Assembly: GCF_013761175.1 (NCBI RefSeq)
Contig: NZ_JACDUR010000009.1
Location: forward strand, 310,001-374,000
Origin: Nonomuraea soli
GTDB lineage: Bacteria > Actinomycetota > Actinomycetes > Streptosporangiales > Streptosporangiaceae
DNA: 64,000 bases
Reading direction: 5' to 3'
Within the stretch, counting starts at the first letter, position 1. Every line of letters starts with the position of its first letter. Below the pieces are notes generated by a model, which was not told where the DNA came from, ran no database searches, and saw only the letters and a list, made by a program, of their open reading frames with translations. The position numbers and the translations under genes are program-made. Positions 9,889-17,639 of this stretch are shown piece by piece.

Positions 9889-11112
9889 TCAGAACGTGCA
9901 CTCCATGTGCTTGATGCCGTTGATGAAGCTCGAATGCAGCCGGTCCGGCCTGCCGCCCTCGATCTGCGGCAGCCGGGTCAGCAGCTCGCGGAACATGACG
10001 GTGATCTCCCTGCGGGCCAGGTGGGCTCCCAGGCAGAAGTGCGGTCCCGGACCTCCGAAGCCGACGTGGGGGTTCGGGTCGCGGGTGATGTCGAACGCCA
10101 GGGAGTCGGCGAAGACGGTCTCGTCGCGGTTGGCCGACCAGTAGAAGAGCACCACCTTCTCCCCCGCCCGGTACTGGTTGCCGTTCATCTCGCAGTCGCG
10201 GGTGACCTTGCGGCGCATGTAGTTGACCGGGGCGGCCAGGCGGACGATCTCCTCGACGGCGCCCGGCAGGTGGCGGTCGAGGTCCGACAGGAGCAGGGCG
10301 CGCTGTTCGGGGTTGCGGGTGAGCAGGCGCAGGCCGTACGAGATGGCGTTGCGGGTGGTCTCGTTGCCGGCGACCACGAGCAGGATGAAGAACGACCCGA
10401 GCTCCTGCGGGGTGAGCTGCTCGCCGTCGATGTTGGCGCTGGTGAGCGAGGCGATGAGGCCGGGCGGCGGGTCGGCGGCGAGCTCCTGGACTAGCTGCTG
10501 GAGTTCGAGGCCGGCGTTGAGCAGGTTGGCCGCGACGTTGTCGAGGTCGGTGTACTCCGGGTCGAAGCCGCCGAGGATGATGTTGGAGCGCTCGAAGATG
10601 AAGCCGTAGTGCTGCTCGGGGATGCCCATCATGTCGCAGATGATCTTCAGGGGCAGCCGGGCGGCGACCTGGGTGACGAAGTCGACCCCGGGTCCCGCGG
10701 CGATCAGGTCGTCGACGATGCGGGTGGCGGCCAGGGCCACGTCGTCCTCGAACTGCTTGATCATGCGCGGGGTGAAGGCCCGGGAGACGATGCGGCGCAG
10801 CCGGGCGTGGCGGGGGTCGTCCATGTTGATCATGGAGCCGAAGTACTCGGTGAACTCCGCCGGCATGTCGGGGATGTTGGTCGCGCCGCCGTCGCCCGAG
10901 CAGAACAGCTCGGGGTGGCGGCTGGCTTCCAGGATGTCCGCGTGCCGTACCAGCGCGTGGTAGCCGGGCCCGCGCGGGGCGAAGGAGATCTCCATCTCCT
11001 CGAAGAATGCGGGTTTGTCCAGCTCGCGCAGGCGGCGGAAGGCCTCTTCCCTGTCGTTCATGGGCAGCGCCCAGAACTCCGCGGCGGAGAGATCGAAGTC
11101 GATCACGCTCAT
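9889..11112 (-). CDS. Cytochrome P450, CYP124-like (copy 1)
   Basis: A 407-residue soluble bacterial P450 that needs a ferredoxin and reductase, not encoded nearby. Features: heme-binding FGGPGPHFCLG with Cys360, I-helix VAGNETTRNA with the acid-alcohol pair, and YFGSMINMDDPRHARLRRIVSRAFTPR. These long motifs and MMGIPE match my memory of mycobacterial CYP124, an omega-hydroxylase of methyl-branched lipids and sterols, so a similar substrate is inferred. A paralog with the same Cys position lies at 14872-16098. The ATG is at 11112 with TAGAAT nine bases upstream and a perfect 18-bp palindrome farther up, so the gene is probably under a dedicated repressor. Confidence 0.9.
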   Translation of the reverse strand: MSVIDFDLSAAEFWALPMNDREEAFRRLRELDKPAFFEEMEISFAPRGPGYHALVRHADILEASRHPELFCSGDGGATNIPDMPAEFTEYFGSMINMDDPRHARLRRIVSRAFTPRMIKQFEDDVALAATRIVDDLIAAGPGVDFVTQVAARLPLKIICDMMGIPEQHYGFIFERSNIILGGFDPEYTDLDNVAANLLNAGLELQQLVQELAADPPPGLIASLTSANIDGEQLTPQELGSFFILLVVAGNETTRNAISYGLRLLTRNPEQRALLLSDLDRHLPGAVEEIVRLAAPVNYMRRKVTRDCEMNGNQYRAGEKVVLFYWSANRDETVFADSLAFDITRDPNPHVGFGGPGPHFCLGAHLARREITVMFRELLTRLPQIEGGRPDRLHSSFINGIKHMECTF

Positions 11113-11155: not shown

Positions 11156-11189
11156 AAACGGGCAAGCGAAAACCGGTGGACGGCATCGT

Positions 11190-11195
11190 TACCGT
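11190..11195 (+). promoter_or_regulatory. -10 hexamer of the Phe-rich uORF
   Basis: TACCGT lies exactly six bases before the ATG at 11202, the same spacing as other predicted leaderless starts in the window. Confidence 0.45.
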
Positions 11196-11201
11196 GGACC
11201 C

Positions 11202-11225
11202 ATGACGTTCTTCTTCCGACGCTAG
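11202..11225 (+). CDS. Phe-rich upstream ORF, MTFFFRR (candidate attenuator peptide)
   Basis: A seven-codon ORF with three successive TTC codons followed by two Arg codons and TAG. It lies about 90 bases upstream of an RNA methyltransferase gene. The stop codon directly abuts GCGACC, one strand of a multi-branch RNA stem. The layout resembles translational attenuators of antibiotic-resistance rRNA methyltransferases, in which a stalled ribosome on a short peptide exposes the downstream ribosome binding site, or amino-acid leader peptides. I do not know this peptide from a described system. A seven-codon ORF can occur by chance; the promoter spacing, the codon run and the adjacent RNA structure together make it worth keeping. 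Confidence 0.5.
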   Translation: MTFFFRR

Positions 11226-11296
11226 GCGACCGCCGGCGAGCCGAGGCACAGCCCGCTGCCGGTGATGCGGGAGGGCTACCTGCCCTCCCGGGTCGC
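11226..11296 (+). promoter_or_regulatory. Structured leader of the RNA methyltransferase gene
   Basis: A 9-bp perfect hairpin (CGGGAGGGC at 11268 with GCCCTCCCG at 11282) is flanked by GCGACC (11226-11231) and GGTCGC (11291-11296), which can pair and close a three-way structure. The CTCCC of the 3' arm could instead pair with the downstream ribosome binding site GGGAG at 11302-11306. There is no T run, so translational rather than transcriptional control is more likely. Confidence 0.5.
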
Positions 11297-11313
11297 AGCG
11301 TGGGAGAAAACAC

Positions 11314-12279
11314 GTGTTCCTACTGGCCCGGACCATCCGGGGGCTGGAAGATCTGGCGTGCGCGGAGATCGGCTCCCCGGTCGCCAGGGTGCGTCACAGG
11401 GAGGTCTGGTTCGAGGCGGCCAGGCCGCCCGGGCTGCGGATCGCCGACGACCTGTTCGAGATCATGGCGGTCGTGCGCGACGTCGGACCGCACAGGACGG
11501 CGCTCACCAGGCTCGGCGAGGCCGCGGCTCCGTTGAGGAGCGGCGAGGCCGTCGATGTCACCGCCTCCTTCCTGGGCAGGCGCACCTACAACCGTTACGA
11601 CGTCGAGGACGCCGTCGGCACGCGGCTCTCGCCCGCCTACCACTCCAGACGGTCAGGGCACCGGCCGCCGCCGGGGACCACGTCGTGGCGGGTGACGATC
11701 GAGGGAGACGAGGCCGTCATCGCACGCAGGCTCGGCGAGCGCCCGTTGCACCGCCGGCCGTACAAGACCGGGTCCGTGCCCGGCTCGCTCCACCCGCCGG
11801 TCGCGGCGGCGATGGCGCGGCTGGCCGGGCCGCGCGGCGTCGTGCTCGACCCGTGCTGCGGGGCCGGCACGCTACTCATCGAAGCGCACGCCCTCCGGCC
11901 CGGGGCCCGCTACCTCGGCCTGGACCTGCGCAAGGAGTCGATCGCGGCCGCCAGGTCCAACGCGCCGTCGCTCGCCTGGCTGGCCTCCGACGCCGGGCGG
12001 CTGCCGGTCGCCACGGGCGGCGTCGACCGGGTGCTGGTCAACCCGCCGTGGAACCGGCAGGTGCCGGGCGAAGGCCTGATCGCCGGGCTGTGGCGCGAGC
12101 TGGCCAGGGTGCTCGCGCCAGGCGGCAGGATCGTGGCGCTGCTGCACGAGCCGTTCCGCGAAAGGTACGGCCTGCGTGCCGTCAGGGCGCTGCCGCTCAG
12201 CCTGGCCGGCAGTCACCCGACGATCTACGAGATCCAGCCGAGGACGAGCTCGTTGACCTCGCGGGGCCGTTCGAGGTGA
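11314..12279 (+). CDS. RNA methyltransferase, THUMP/UPF0020 (RlmKL/TrmN-like) family
   Basis: A 321-residue SAM-dependent methyltransferase of the family that modifies guanine N2 in rRNA or tRNA. The N-terminal half (ARTIRGLEDLACAEI, GRRTYNRYDVEDAVG) looks like a degenerate ferredoxin-like/THUMP RNA-binding module. The C-terminal half is a Rossmann methyltransferase with DPCCGAGTLLIEA (motif I) and the catalytic VNPPW (NPPW motif). The start is GTG at 11314 with GGGAGA seven bases upstream. The 5' leader carries a Phe-rich micro-ORF and stem-loops, so expression may be translation-controlled. The 3' end overlaps the convergent hydrolase gene by 55 bases. The exact RNA target cannot be told from sequence. 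Confidence 0.85.
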   Translation: MFLLARTIRGLEDLACAEIGSPVARVRHREVWFEAARPPGLRIADDLFEIMAVVRDVGPHRTALTRLGEAAAPLRSGEAVDVTASFLGRRTYNRYDVEDAVGTRLSPAYHSRRSGHRPPPGTTSWRVTIEGDEAVIARRLGERPLHRRPYKTGSVPGSLHPPVAAAMARLAGPRGVVLDPCCGAGTLLIEAHALRPGARYLGLDLRKESIAAARSNAPSLAWLASDAGRLPVATGGVDRVLVNPPWNRQVPGEGLIAGLWRELARVLAPGGRIVALLHEPFRERYGLRAVRALPLSLAGSHPTIYEIQPRTSSLTSRGRSR

Positions 12280-14379: not shown

Positions 14380-14878
14380 TCGGGCGGATGTGCAGGAAGT
14401 AGCCCTCCTGGTCGGTCCGGGGCCGCTGGCGCCCGTAGACCCGCAGGGCGTAGCGGCCCGCACCTTGGAAGGTGAGGTTCAGTTCGAACTCGGCGCCCAG
14501 CGGCCGCATGATGCCCGTGGTGGTGACGAACTCGAGCTCCTCGCTCTCCGGCCAGGCACTGCGGCGCAGCTGCCATGGGTCCTGCTGCCAGTCGGCCCAC
14601 AGGTTGACGGGGCCCGTGGCGCGCAGGGTGCGGATGACGACGCAGTCCGGGACGGCGGCGGCCAGGCCCGGGGGCATCGCTGGTGTCGAGGCTGGTTCCT
14701 GGAACGGGTTGGTGATGCGGACGAGGTGGTCACGAGCGAAGCCCACACCGTGCCAGGCCGGAGGGAGCTCGGCCATCCGCTCGTCGAGAGGGGGGCCGGG
14801 ACGTCCCGGCTCCCTAGCGGGGTCGATGTTCCGGAGCGCCCATTCCTGGATTTCGCGGGATTTGTCCGAGGTCACCAC
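14351..14878 (-). CDS. Unknown protein translationally coupled to the second P450 (175 aa)
   Basis: Last gene of the GMC oxidoreductase-P450 operon. Its GTG start (14878, or GTG 14875) overlaps the P450 stop codon, so translation is likely coupled. The protein is soluble. Its C-terminal half, with alternating hydrophobic residues (EFELNLTFQGAGRYALRVYG), looks like an all-beta domain; the N-terminal half is Pro-rich (WHGVGFARDHLVRITNPF). No Cys-rich, redox or nucleotide motif is visible and I do not recognise the family. Its place suggests an accessory role for the P450 or its product. Confidence 0.7.
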   Translation of the reverse strand: MVTSDKSREIQEWALRNIDPAREPGRPGPPLDERMAELPPAWHGVGFARDHLVRITNPFQEPASTPAMPPGLAAAVPDCVVIRTLRATGPVNLWADWQQDPWQLRRSAWPESEELEFVTTTGIMRPLGAEFELNLTFQGAGRYALRVYGRQRPRTDQEGYFLHIRPITLGAAALG

Positions 14879-16098
14879 TCATACCGTAGGTGCTTCACCC
14901 CGTTGATGAAGTTCGACAGCAGGAAATCCGGCTCCCCCACCGACCTGATGTCCGGCATGCGGGTGAGCAGTTCGCGGAACATCACCGTCATCTCCCGGCG
15001 GGCCAGGTGCGCGCCCAGGCAGTAGTGCGGTCCCGGCCCGCCGAATCCCACGTGGGGGTTGGGGTCGCGGGTGATGTCGAAGACGTCGGGGTCCTTGAAG
15101 ACGCTCTCGTCCCGGTTGGCCGAGTTGTAGAACAGCAGGACCTTGTCGCCCTTCTTGTAGATGCCGTGGTCCCGGGTGAGCGTGCGCCGGAACTGGATCA
15201 CCGGGGTGGCGTAGCGCACGATCTCCTCGCACGCCCGCCCGATGTGCTTGTCGAAGTCGTCGGCGAGCAGTTGCCGCTGCTCGGGGTGGTCGGTGAGCAG
15301 TTTGAGCCCGTAGGCGATGGCGTTGCGGGTGGTCTCGCTCCCGGCCACGACGAGCAGGATGAAGAACGAGCCGAGCTCCTGCGGCGTGAGCGACTCCTCG
15401 CCGTTGACGAGGAGGGAGACCAGGTCTCCCGTGGGCTGCCTGCGGCGCTGGGCGCCGAGCCTGGCCGCCATGCGGTTGAGCGAGTGGCCCGCGTGCAGCA
15501 GCTTCACCAGGCCCCTGCCGACGTTGAGGCGGCTGAAGTCGGGGTCGATCCCGGTGTACTCCTTGTCGGCGTTGCCGAGGATGACGTTCGTACGGCGCAG
15601 CACGGTGTCGTGATGTCTGGCGGGGATGCCCATCATGTCGCAGATCACCCGCACCGGCAGCCGGGCGGCGACCTGCCGCACGAAGTCGCCTGGTCCGGCG
15701 CGCAGCGCCTCGTCGACGATCTCGGAGGCGGCGAGCGCCAGGTCCTCCTCCATCTTCGACAGGACGCGGGGGGTGAAGGCGCGCGAGACGATGCGCCGCA
15801 GCCTGGCGTGCCGCGGATCGTCCATGTTGATCATCGAGCCGAAGTAGACGGCCAGCCATCTGGGCATGTCGGGGATGCTGTTGGAGCACGGCTCGCTGCT
15901 GAAGATCCCGGCGTTGCGGCTGGCCTCGGTGACGTCGGCGTGCCGTACGAGCGCGTAGTAGCCCGGCCCGCCCCCGATGAAGGGCACGTGGTTCTCCCGC
16001 ACGAACACGGGCCGCTCCAGCTGGCGCATCTCGCGGAAGGCGGCCATGCGCTCGTGCTGGGGCAGCCCCCAGAACGGGATCTCGGAGATGTCGGGCAT
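14872..16098 (-). CDS. Cytochrome P450, CYP124-like (copy 2)
   Basis: A 408-residue P450 paralogous to the one at 9889-11112: both have the heme Cys at residue 360 (FGGPGPHYCLG), the same GSMINMDDPRHARLRRIVSRAFTPR block and an FILLVVAGSETTRNA I-helix. By resemblance to mycobacterial CYP124, hydroxylation of a methyl-branched fatty acid, isoprenoid or sterol side chain is inferred. The ATG (16096-16098) overlaps the stop codon of the GMC oxidoreductase by one base (TGATG). The operon order oxidoreductase, P450, unknown suggests hydroxylation followed by alcohol oxidation of the same substrate. Confidence 0.92.
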   Translation of the reverse strand: MPDISEIPFWGLPQHERMAAFREMRQLERPVFVRENHVPFIGGGPGYYALVRHADVTEASRNAGIFSSEPCSNSIPDMPRWLAVYFGSMINMDDPRHARLRRIVSRAFTPRVLSKMEEDLALAASEIVDEALRAGPGDFVRQVAARLPVRVICDMMGIPARHHDTVLRRTNVILGNADKEYTGIDPDFSRLNVGRGLVKLLHAGHSLNRMAARLGAQRRRQPTGDLVSLLVNGEESLTPQELGSFFILLVVAGSETTRNAIAYGLKLLTDHPEQRQLLADDFDKHIGRACEEIVRYATPVIQFRRTLTRDHGIYKKGDKVLLFYNSANRDESVFKDPDVFDITRDPNPHVGFGGPGPHYCLGAHLARREMTVMFRELLTRMPDIRSVGEPDFLLSNFINGVKHLRYEW

Positions 16099-17639
16099 CA
16101 CGTTCCCTTCACCAGGTCCGCGCCCTTCTCGCCGATCATGATGGCGGGCGCGTGGGTGTGCCCGCGGTTGAGGGTCGGCATGATCGAGGCGTCGATGACC
16201 CGCAGCCCCTCCAGCCCGCGCACCTTCAGCTCGGGGTCGACGACGGCTTCGGGGTCGGTGCCCATGCGGCAGGTGCCGACCGGGTGGTAGAGGGTCTCGC
16301 CCTTCTCCCGCACCCACTGCGCGAGTTCGGCGTCGCTCTCCGGACCCCAGTAGGGCTCGTACGGCTCGCCGGCGTAGGGCTGCATGGCCGTGGTGGCCAT
16401 CACCTGCTTGGCGACCTTGAGCCCGGCGACGAGCCGCTGCACGTCGGCGGGGCTGCTCAGGTAGGCGGGGTCGATCGTCGCCTCGCGCCCGGCCAGCGAG
16501 ACGCGGCCGCGGCTCTCGGGCTGGAGCAGGATCACGCCGACGGTCATGCCGTGGGAGTGCGGCTTGTCCAGGCCGTGGTTGACGAACGGGCCCGGCGCGA
16601 AGATCAGCTCGATGTCGGGCGCGGGCTCGGCGGGCGTGGTGCGGATGAAGGCGACGGCCTCGCCGACGTTGGTCGTGAAGGGCCCGGTGCGCATGACGAT
16701 GTAGCGCAGCAGGTTGACGAGGGAGTCGGCGAAGGCGATCGAGACCGGCGCCGGGGTGGTGAGCGTGACGCCGCTGGCCAGGTGGTCTTGCAGGTTGCGT
16801 CCGACCTCCGGGCGGTCGAGGAGCACCTCGACGCCTTCCTCGCGCAGTTCGTCGGCGGCGCCGACGCCGCTGCGCAGCAGCAGATGCGGCGAGCCGATGG
16901 CTCCCGCCGCCAGCAGCACCTCGCGCCTGGCCCTGATCTGGGCGCCTCCGCCGTGCTCGATGCCGACGGCCCTGGTGCCTTCGAAGACGACGCGTTCGAC
17001 CGTGGTGTCGGTGATGACCGTCAGGTTGGGCCGCTTGAGCGCGGGACGCAGGTAGGCGTCGGCGGCGCTCCACCGCCTGCCGCGGTTCTGGGTAACGGGT
17101 GTCTGGCAGTAGCCCTCGTTGGAGGGTTCGTTCAGCTCGGCCAGGCGCTTGAAGCCCATCTCCTCGCAGGCGCGCAGGAACGCCCCGGTCATGACGTTGG
17201 GGCTGCGCTGCTCGGAGATGTAGAGGGGGCCCGCCTCGCCGTACACCCCGCCGTGGTTGCTGCCGACGCGGCGCTCGGCCTTCTGGAAGTACGGCAGGAC
17301 CTCGTCGTAGCCCCAGCCGGGGATGTCCCACTGGTCGTAGTCGAGGCGGTGGCCGCGCACCCACATCTGGGCGTTCAGGGAGGAGGAGCCGCCCAGGGTG
17401 CGCCCGCGGGGCCAGTACAGCTCGCGCCCCTCCATCTCGGCCTGCTTGGCGGTGGTGAAGTTCCAGTCGTAGGGGGTCTTGAAGAGCTTGGGGAAGCCCG
17501 CCGGGATGCGTATCTCCAGCTTGTCGTCCTGACCGCCGGCTTCGACCAGCGCCACCGAGACATCCGGATCGGCGGTTAGCCTGTTGGCCAGGACGCACCC
17601 CGCCGAGCCCGCTCCGACGATCACGTAGTCGTACTCCAT
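16098..17639 (-). CDS. GMC-family FAD-dependent alcohol/choline-type dehydrogenase
   Basis: A 513-residue flavoprotein of the glucose-methanol-choline family that oxidises primary alcohols to aldehydes. The N-terminal FAD-binding motif is VIVGAGSAGCVLANRL; the PROSITE-like GRTLGGSSSLNAQMWVRG and the C-terminal HPVGTCRMG and GHTHAPAIMIGEKGADL regions with the active-site His are present. The ATG at 17639 was preferred over an upstream start because GGAGG lies five bases before it and the FAD motif follows at once. It leads an operon with a CYP124-like P450, making it a candidate for oxidising the hydroxylated lipid. A palindrome lies between it and the divergent acyl-CoA ligase. Confidence 0.92.
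   Translation of the reverse strand: MEYDYVIVGAGSAGCVLANRLTADPDVSVALVEAGGQDDKLEIRIPAGFPKLFKTPYDWNFTTAKQAEMEGRELYWPRGRTLGGSSSLNAQMWVRGHRLDYDQWDIPGWGYDEVLPYFQKAERRVGSNHGGVYGEAGPLYISEQRSPNVMTGAFLRACEEMGFKRLAELNEPSNEGYCQTPVTQNRGRRWSAADAYLRPALKRPNLTVITDTTVERVVFEGTRAVGIEHGGGAQIRARREVLLAAGAIGSPHLLLRSGVGAADELREEGVEVLLDRPEVGRNLQDHLASGVTLTTPAPVSIAFADSLVNLLRYIVMRTGPFTTNVGEAVAFIRTTPAEPAPDIELIFAPGPFVNHGLDKPHSHGMTVGVILLQPESRGRVSLAGREATIDPAYLSSPADVQRLVAGLKVAKQVMATTAMQPYAGEPYEPYWGPESDAELAQWVREKGETLYHPVGTCRMGTDPEAVVDPELKVRGLEGLRVIDASIMPTLNRGHTHAPAIMIGEKGADLVKGT

Follow-up and report, generated by a model that had tools for sequence, protein, structure and literature searches.

A conserved short upstream ORF and RNA structure that probably form a translational attenuator of an EmtA-like methyltransferase gene in actinobacteria

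A short upstream ORF (uORF) and a set of RNA stems are conserved, beyond chance, in front of the gene for an EmtA-like RNA methyltransferase in Nonomuraea soli and many other actinobacteria. We consider it likely that this leader is a translational attenuator of the kind known from erm genes, in which a stalled ribosome would free the Shine-Dalgarno (SD) sequence of the methylase gene. The leader lies in a stretch of 64,000 nucleotides of the N. soli genome, referred to here as the window. All coordinates without a locus name are positions in the window, and the elements of the leader and its gene are on the plus strand.

The methylase gene (positions 11314 to 12279) starts with GTG and encodes a protein of 321 amino acids. 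The elements that an initial annotation had named upstream of it are all present in the sequence. A −10 box, TACCGT (11190 to 11195), is followed after six bases by the ATG at 11202 of a uORF reading ATG ACG TTC TTC TTC CGA CGC TAG (11202 to 11225), which encodes MTFFFRR and is probably leaderless, the transcript being predicted to start at the ATG or beside it. Directly 3' of its stop codon is GCGACC (11226 to 11231), the complement of GGTCGC at 11291 to 11296, and between these two elements lies a 9-bp hairpin (P3, 11268 to 11290) that contains CTCCC (11285 to 11289). The SD sequence, GGGAG, occupies positions 11302 to 11306. The methylase region is flanked by two cytochrome P450 reading frames (9889 to 11112 and 14872 to 17598), which resemble each other and are both on the minus strand.

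If the uORF matters for expression of the methylase, its codons should be recognizable in orthologous loci, a test that the initial annotation had proposed together with conservation of the stems; both parts were run and passed. We compared 95 loci picked by protein similarity, with the methylase N terminus aligned and on the plus strand only; some genomes are represented twice. The uORF is present in 91 of these, across many actinobacterial genera. A strict rule, which required two aromatic residues side by side in a short uORF, recovered 88, and inspection added three loci whose uORF lacks the adjacent aromatic pair (L090, L093, and L097). The leader is decayed in L082 and absent from L044, L089, and L110. 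A larger count of 140 in 146 loci includes loci fetched by the leader model described below as well as repeated genomes, so that the protein-selected count is the fairer one. Among the best 80 of 101 relatives, the loci come from Nonomuraea, Sphaerisporangium, Phytohabitans, Actinomadura, Streptomyces, Herbidospora, Kribbella, Glycomyces, Saccharopolyspora, Micrococcales, and others. The decayed leader belongs to the second methylase copy of Glycomyces luteolus, in which part of the leader remains (L082:4854-4915) and the uORF is lost; the other copy (L106) keeps both.

The uORFs are 6 to 10 codons long and share the consensus F-F-x-L-(R/G)-stop. When the residues of 79 distinct leaders were counted from the C terminus, the last was R in 52 and G in 23, the second to last was L in 55, and the third to last was variable. 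The two phenylalanines are nearly fixed, with F in 78 and Y in 1 at position −4 and F in 75 and Y in 1 at position −5, while the third position of the aromatic run is F, R, H, P, Y, L, or another residue. Where an arginine directly follows F or Y, the uORFs use the rare codon CGA in 26 of 30 cases, including 11217 to 11219 in the window; CGA accounts for 4.8% of the arginine codons in the methylase genes. We considered CGA as a slow-codon signal and set this aside, since in uORFs with FRR its A pairs in stem P1, and the preference is thus at least partly structural. A second start codon within the leader (GATGCGGG) was ruled out as well; its T varies (A, G, or C).

The leader folds into a structure of three stems. 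The window leader is more stable than all of 200 dinucleotide shuffles (−79.9 kcal/mol against a mean of −60.8; z = −4.44). The initial annotation had paired GCGACC with GGTCGC, and this pairing is present in the minimum free energy (MFE) structure; it extends further than claimed, into the uORF codons and the SD sequence. TTCTTCC of the uORF (11211 to 11217) pairs with GGGAGAA (11302 to 11308), and ACGCT (11219 to 11223) pairs with AGCGT (11297 to 11301). The 5' arm of the resulting stem P1 (11211 to 11231) thus consists of uORF codons, the stop codon, and GCGACC, and its 3' arm (11291 to 11308) includes the SD sequence. P2 is a stem-loop (11231 to 11264, CGCCGGC with GCCGGTG) whose first base, 11231, can pair in either P1 or P2. 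According to these folding models, the anti-SD sequence is the uORF itself, through pairing of its last codons with the SD region of the methylase gene. The alternative pairing suggested initially, between the CTCCC arm of P3 and the SD sequence, can form; it is not the conserved pairing in the Arg-ending leaders, and the SD sequence is predicted to be masked by the uORF codons rather than mainly by that arm.

To examine covariation, we took 51 leaders chosen below 90% identity and used the 36 among them whose uORF ends in R, L, or V. Across these 36 leaders, 89.8% of the combinations at 34 pairs are standard, and 12 pairs show changes on both sides (4 in P1, 5 in P2, and 3 in P3). Cells with two-sided changes numbered 50, against 17.3 in shuffles, and none of 500 shuffles reached as high a number. 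Sliding the structure lowered pairing from 90% to 41 to 66%. P2 is paired in 97.5% of cells, with two-sided changes in 5 of its 9 pairs, and P3 in 96.9% of cells over 8 counted pairs, 3 of them with two-sided changes. Matched changes in P1 include GGTAGC with GCTACC in L052 and GAGCCCG with CGGGCTT in L096. When 79 leaders were aligned with MAFFT and folded with RNAalifold, P2 and a portion of P3 were recovered and P1, which is blurred by indels in that alignment, was missed. We therefore tested P1 with arm swaps in addition to the subset ending in R, L, or V. In 78 leaders, P1 formed from a leader's own arms had an energy of −25.6 kcal/mol versus −22.8 with swapped arms, and the own arms were better than the mean of arms from divergent species in 60. 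The 18 leaders that failed this test belong to Glycomyces, Kribbella, Micrococcales, Microbispora, Actinophytocola, Rhizohabitans, and Saccharopolyspora.

Leaders whose uORF ends in G or A share the architecture. In 16 of them (one row cut short), 86% of cells are paired; this alignment contains no P1 pair with a two-sided change, and 2 of 5 measures fail to beat shuffles. The P2 loop (11242 to 11254 in the window) has a CGNGG/GAGG motif and a CCC that are conserved in both leader classes, and in the G/A-ending leaders its CCCGC is able to pair with GCGGG of P3. The window had no Rfam match at the gathering score, with chance-level matches only at a relaxed threshold, and an Rfam search of 11 relatives returned a tRNA only.

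We then placed ribosomes on the uORF in the folding models. The median probability that the SD sequence is unpaired, over 79 leaders, was 0.01 in the free RNA versus 0.42 once a ribosome occupied the last sense codon, and the probability rose by more than 0.3 in 52 of the 79 when a ribosome sat on the uORF. The leader of the window went from 0.05 to 0.29 to 0.35. The models thus predict, in line with the initial proposal that uORF translation controls the methylase, that a uORF ribosome would free the SD sequence in most leaders. The effect depends on position along the leader: in the 55 R/L/V-ending leaders, a 30-nt block gave an unpaired probability of 0.47 to 0.48 when it lay over the uORF, 0.13 when it started 10 nt before the end of the stop codon, and 0.03 to 0.04 further on. 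One locus, L065, was left out of the block, swap, and synonymous-codon tests and of the counts of uORF response and T runs in 78 leaders, as its SD sequence was mis-assigned, and was kept among the 79 leaders of the SD-probability analysis. When the uORF codons were resampled among synonymous ones, the SD sequence opened slightly; native codons closed it more in 58 of 78 leaders and gave a lower fold energy in 65 of 78. Because the FF codons themselves sit in P1 in most leaders, selection on the peptide and selection on the RNA are not cleanly separable.

The response differs between leader classes and lineages. The mean rise in SD opening was 0.53 in the 55 R/L/V-ending leaders versus 0.27 in 23 G/A-ending leaders, in which a block over the uORF gave just 0.25 to 0.34. 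Placing the block over P3 instead (+50 to +79) opened the SD sequence about equally, to 0.29, in the 9 G/A-ending leaders where it fits, mainly from Herbidospora. Covering the uORF opened the SD sequence by at most 0.1 in 10 of 78 leaders (L067, L076, L078, L079, L080, L091, L101, L103, L107, and L108). Five Herbidospora leaders (L076, L078, L079, L080, and L103) have an SD sequence that is unresponsive to a uORF ribosome in the model, and the P3 block raises its opening in most of them. The switch may be wired differently in Herbidospora; more broadly, the mechanism may be different or mis-modeled in Herbidospora, Kribbella, and some others. Overall, Herbidospora, Kribbella, and Glycomyces are lineages for which the support is weaker.

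Two other explanations of the masked SD sequence have to be weighed here; the confidences that we attach to the rival explanations are not mutually exclusive. In the first, there is no drug sensing: ribosomes that finish the uORF open the SD sequence each time, by constitutive coupling, or the methylation state of the rRNA alters termination and provides autoregulation. The models fit this to the extent that each of the three ribosome positions tested on the uORF opened the SD sequence, and the uORF is probably leaderless and has its stop codon inside P1. The conservation of FFxL(R/G) right up to the stop codon, however, suggests a peptide-specific event over mere passage of ribosomes, and we regard this explanation as unlikely. 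In the second, the transcription terminator would be either P3 or a hairpin formed between its 3' arm and the SD region, with P1 or an alternative pairing as the antiterminator. P3 is strong and GC-rich, the CCCGC/GCGGG pairing that can be drawn in G/A-ending leaders would exclude it, and L101 has TTTT after such a hairpin. Against this, in the segment that reaches from 25 nt 5' to 14 nt 3' of the SD sequence, the longest T run measures 1 to 3 in 77 of the 78 leaders and 4 in the remaining one, and the conserved partner in P1 is the SD sequence itself, so that transcription attenuation seems to us very improbable.

The promoter region bears on how the uORF is read. A TANNNT box was found in 66 of 79 leaders and was absent from the range searched in the other 13; in 63 of the 66, the start codon lies 6 to 8 nt 3' of the box. 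Most WblC promoters are reported to start transcription 7 to 8 bp after the −10 box (PMC7157823). Given this published rule and the distance of 6 to 8 nt, the uORF is probably leaderless. The starts were in frame in 65 of 66 leaders, a test that is partly circular, as the stop codon came from the ORF search.

The WblC box published for Streptomyces coelicolor is GAAAWY-N3-TKGMNN (PMC7157823). Of 100 distinct leader strings, a set that includes close relatives, 44 scored at least 8 out of 10 for the full motif GAAAWY-N3-TKGMNN-N16-19-TANNNT, compared with 0.3% of shuffles; 17 of the 100 had no usable −10 box and hence a score of 0. The promoter region of the window (11168 to 11195) carries GAAAACCGGTGGACG, which fits the WblC box (GAAAAC at 11168 to 11173, CGG, and TGGACG at 11177 to 11182), but the spacer to TACCGT is only 7 nt. 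This spacer is 8 nt in L008, 18 nt in the closest relative, L007, and 16 to 19 nt in many relatives. The short spacers of the WblC/WhiB7-like boxes in the window and L008 look as though they were missing one turn of the helix. Use of the window's own promoter by WblC is doubtful, and the window and L008 probably do not use the WblC-type box in the usual way.

The sequence of the methylase suggests a probable role in resistance. The initial annotation had assigned it to the RlmKL/TrmN type; among the libraries searched (NCBIfam, a plasmid collection, and the PDB), its nearest characterized homolog by sequence is instead EmtA. EmtA confers orthosomycin resistance and methylates G2470 of 23S rRNA. 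The best NCBIfam model was NF033398 (EmtA), with an E value of 1.2e-25 and 90.6 bits, a score that does not reach the curated cutoff of 625, followed by TIGR01177 at 55 bits and then archaeal Trm14. The protein is 30% identical to EmtA of Enterococcus faecium over 94% of its length. The plasmid collection yielded four relatives, three of which are E. faecium emtA copies and the fourth a Nonomuraea record, and the best PDB structure was 3tma (1.1e-16). From these similarities, the methylase is EmtA-like and a probable resistance enzyme.

A covariance model was built on the R/L/V-ending leaders and searched with the stricter filters of Infernal, so that the counts for genus and class are lower bounds. 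The model matched one place in the N. soli genome itself and at least 47 of 54 genomes of the genus. A methylase match at an E value of 1e-20 was found in 46 of the 54, all of them among the 47 with the leader; the 47th (G020) has a weaker methylase match adjoining its leader. The seven genomes of the genus that lacked the leader also lacked a methylase match at 1e-20. Among 296 genomes sampled from the class, at least 8 were matched, N. soli included, and the methylase adjoined the leader in all 7 of the others.

With regard to the signal, the initial annotation had offered a shortage of Phe-tRNA or a ribosome-targeting compound. Under amino acid attenuation, scarcity of Phe-tRNA (or Tyr-tRNA) would stall the ribosome on the aromatic codons and free the SD sequence. 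Nearly all uORFs have runs of aromatic codons, and a ribosome halted on them would also cover P1. The run is short, however, with two aromatic codons nearly fixed, a variable third position, and Tyr in place of Phe in some leaders, and the choice of Phe codon is uninformative, as TTC dominates in the methylase genes as well as in the uORFs. The gene product, moreover, is an RNA methylase whose closest match is a resistance enzyme, and relatives carry the WblC-type box. We therefore find starvation sensing quite unlikely. The likeness to EmtA and the WblC-type box of relatives favor a ribosome-targeting drug, and we infer that the inducer is an antibiotic directed at the 50S subunit rather than Phe starvation. 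Orthosomycins are a reasonable guess.

The translational attenuator that we favor would work as follows; we infer the translation of the uORF, the stalling, the inducer, and the methylated base. Transcription would begin at the start codon of the uORF or immediately beside it. When the uORF is freely read and the ribosome released, P1 would form, enclosing P2 and P3, and the methylase would be off. If the ribosome stalls toward the 3' end of the uORF, during synthesis or termination of the F-F-x-L-(R/G) peptide, its footprint would cover the 5' arm of P1, leaving the SD sequence free and the methylase translated. The likely stalling signal is a large-subunit antibiotic, possibly an orthosomycin such as evernimicin or avilamycin, and the methylase would confer protection from it. 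We can imagine, more tentatively, a broader interpretation that is possible without being the one we would expect: an undescribed, ancient actinobacterial sensor with two locks, in which a WblC-type promoter is combined with a leaderless arrest ORF of 6 to 10 codons whose FFxL(R/G)-stop reports a specific large-subunit inhibitor, not necessarily an orthosomycin, and whose codons are the anti-SD sequence of an EmtA-like rRNA methylase.

Should the switch operate in this manner, many soil actinobacteria hold a ribosome-based sensor for a class of 50S inhibitors that is tied to a probable resistance methylase, and FFxL(R/G)-stop would be a compact arrest sequence for studies of drug-specific stalling. 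The covariance model describes an RNA family not found in Rfam, and the switch itself could supply a natural reporter part for antibiotic discovery.

This leader may have been described before. Mangano et al. (2022) reportedly found that orthosomycins direct stalling within a regulatory ORF, which may control an orthosomycin resistance gene in various bacteria. The methylase here is EmtA-like, and the chances that this leader is already described there are roughly even. Word searches of an open-licence library found no other description of it. E. faecium EmtA, with 30% identity over nearly its whole length, is a homologous methylase; the region upstream of E. faecium emtA gave no match to the actinobacterial leader model and has a possible uORF of its own, MILEKTP-stop (L122:958-981), whose start lies inside an inverted repeat.

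Ribosome-sensing uORFs upstream of actinobacterial resistance functions are known from whiB7, lmrC, and are5sc/tiaA (PMC8546547, PMC12421871, and PMC10727445). In those accounts, the WhiB7/WblC and ARE-ABCF attenuators are transcriptional and have terminators, whereas here the SD sequence is masked and a T-rich terminator was not seen. The closest parallel is with the inducible erm leaders, ermC and its kin. In the erm mechanism, a short leader ORF precedes an rRNA methylase whose SD sequence is hidden in RNA structure, and a ribosome on the leader frees it (PMC10219788 and PMC13410324). The leader studied here likewise has a conserved short upstream ORF; a sequestered SD sequence, with P1 weakly supported in G/A-ending leaders; and, in folding models only, release of that sequence by a ribosome on the uORF. 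It differs in that the methylase is UPF0020/EmtA-like and not Erm, and in that the uORF is probably leaderless, has 6 to 10 codons, and ends in FFxL(R/G). In ermC, the SD sequence pairs with a later stem; here, it is predicted to pair directly with the codons of the uORF.
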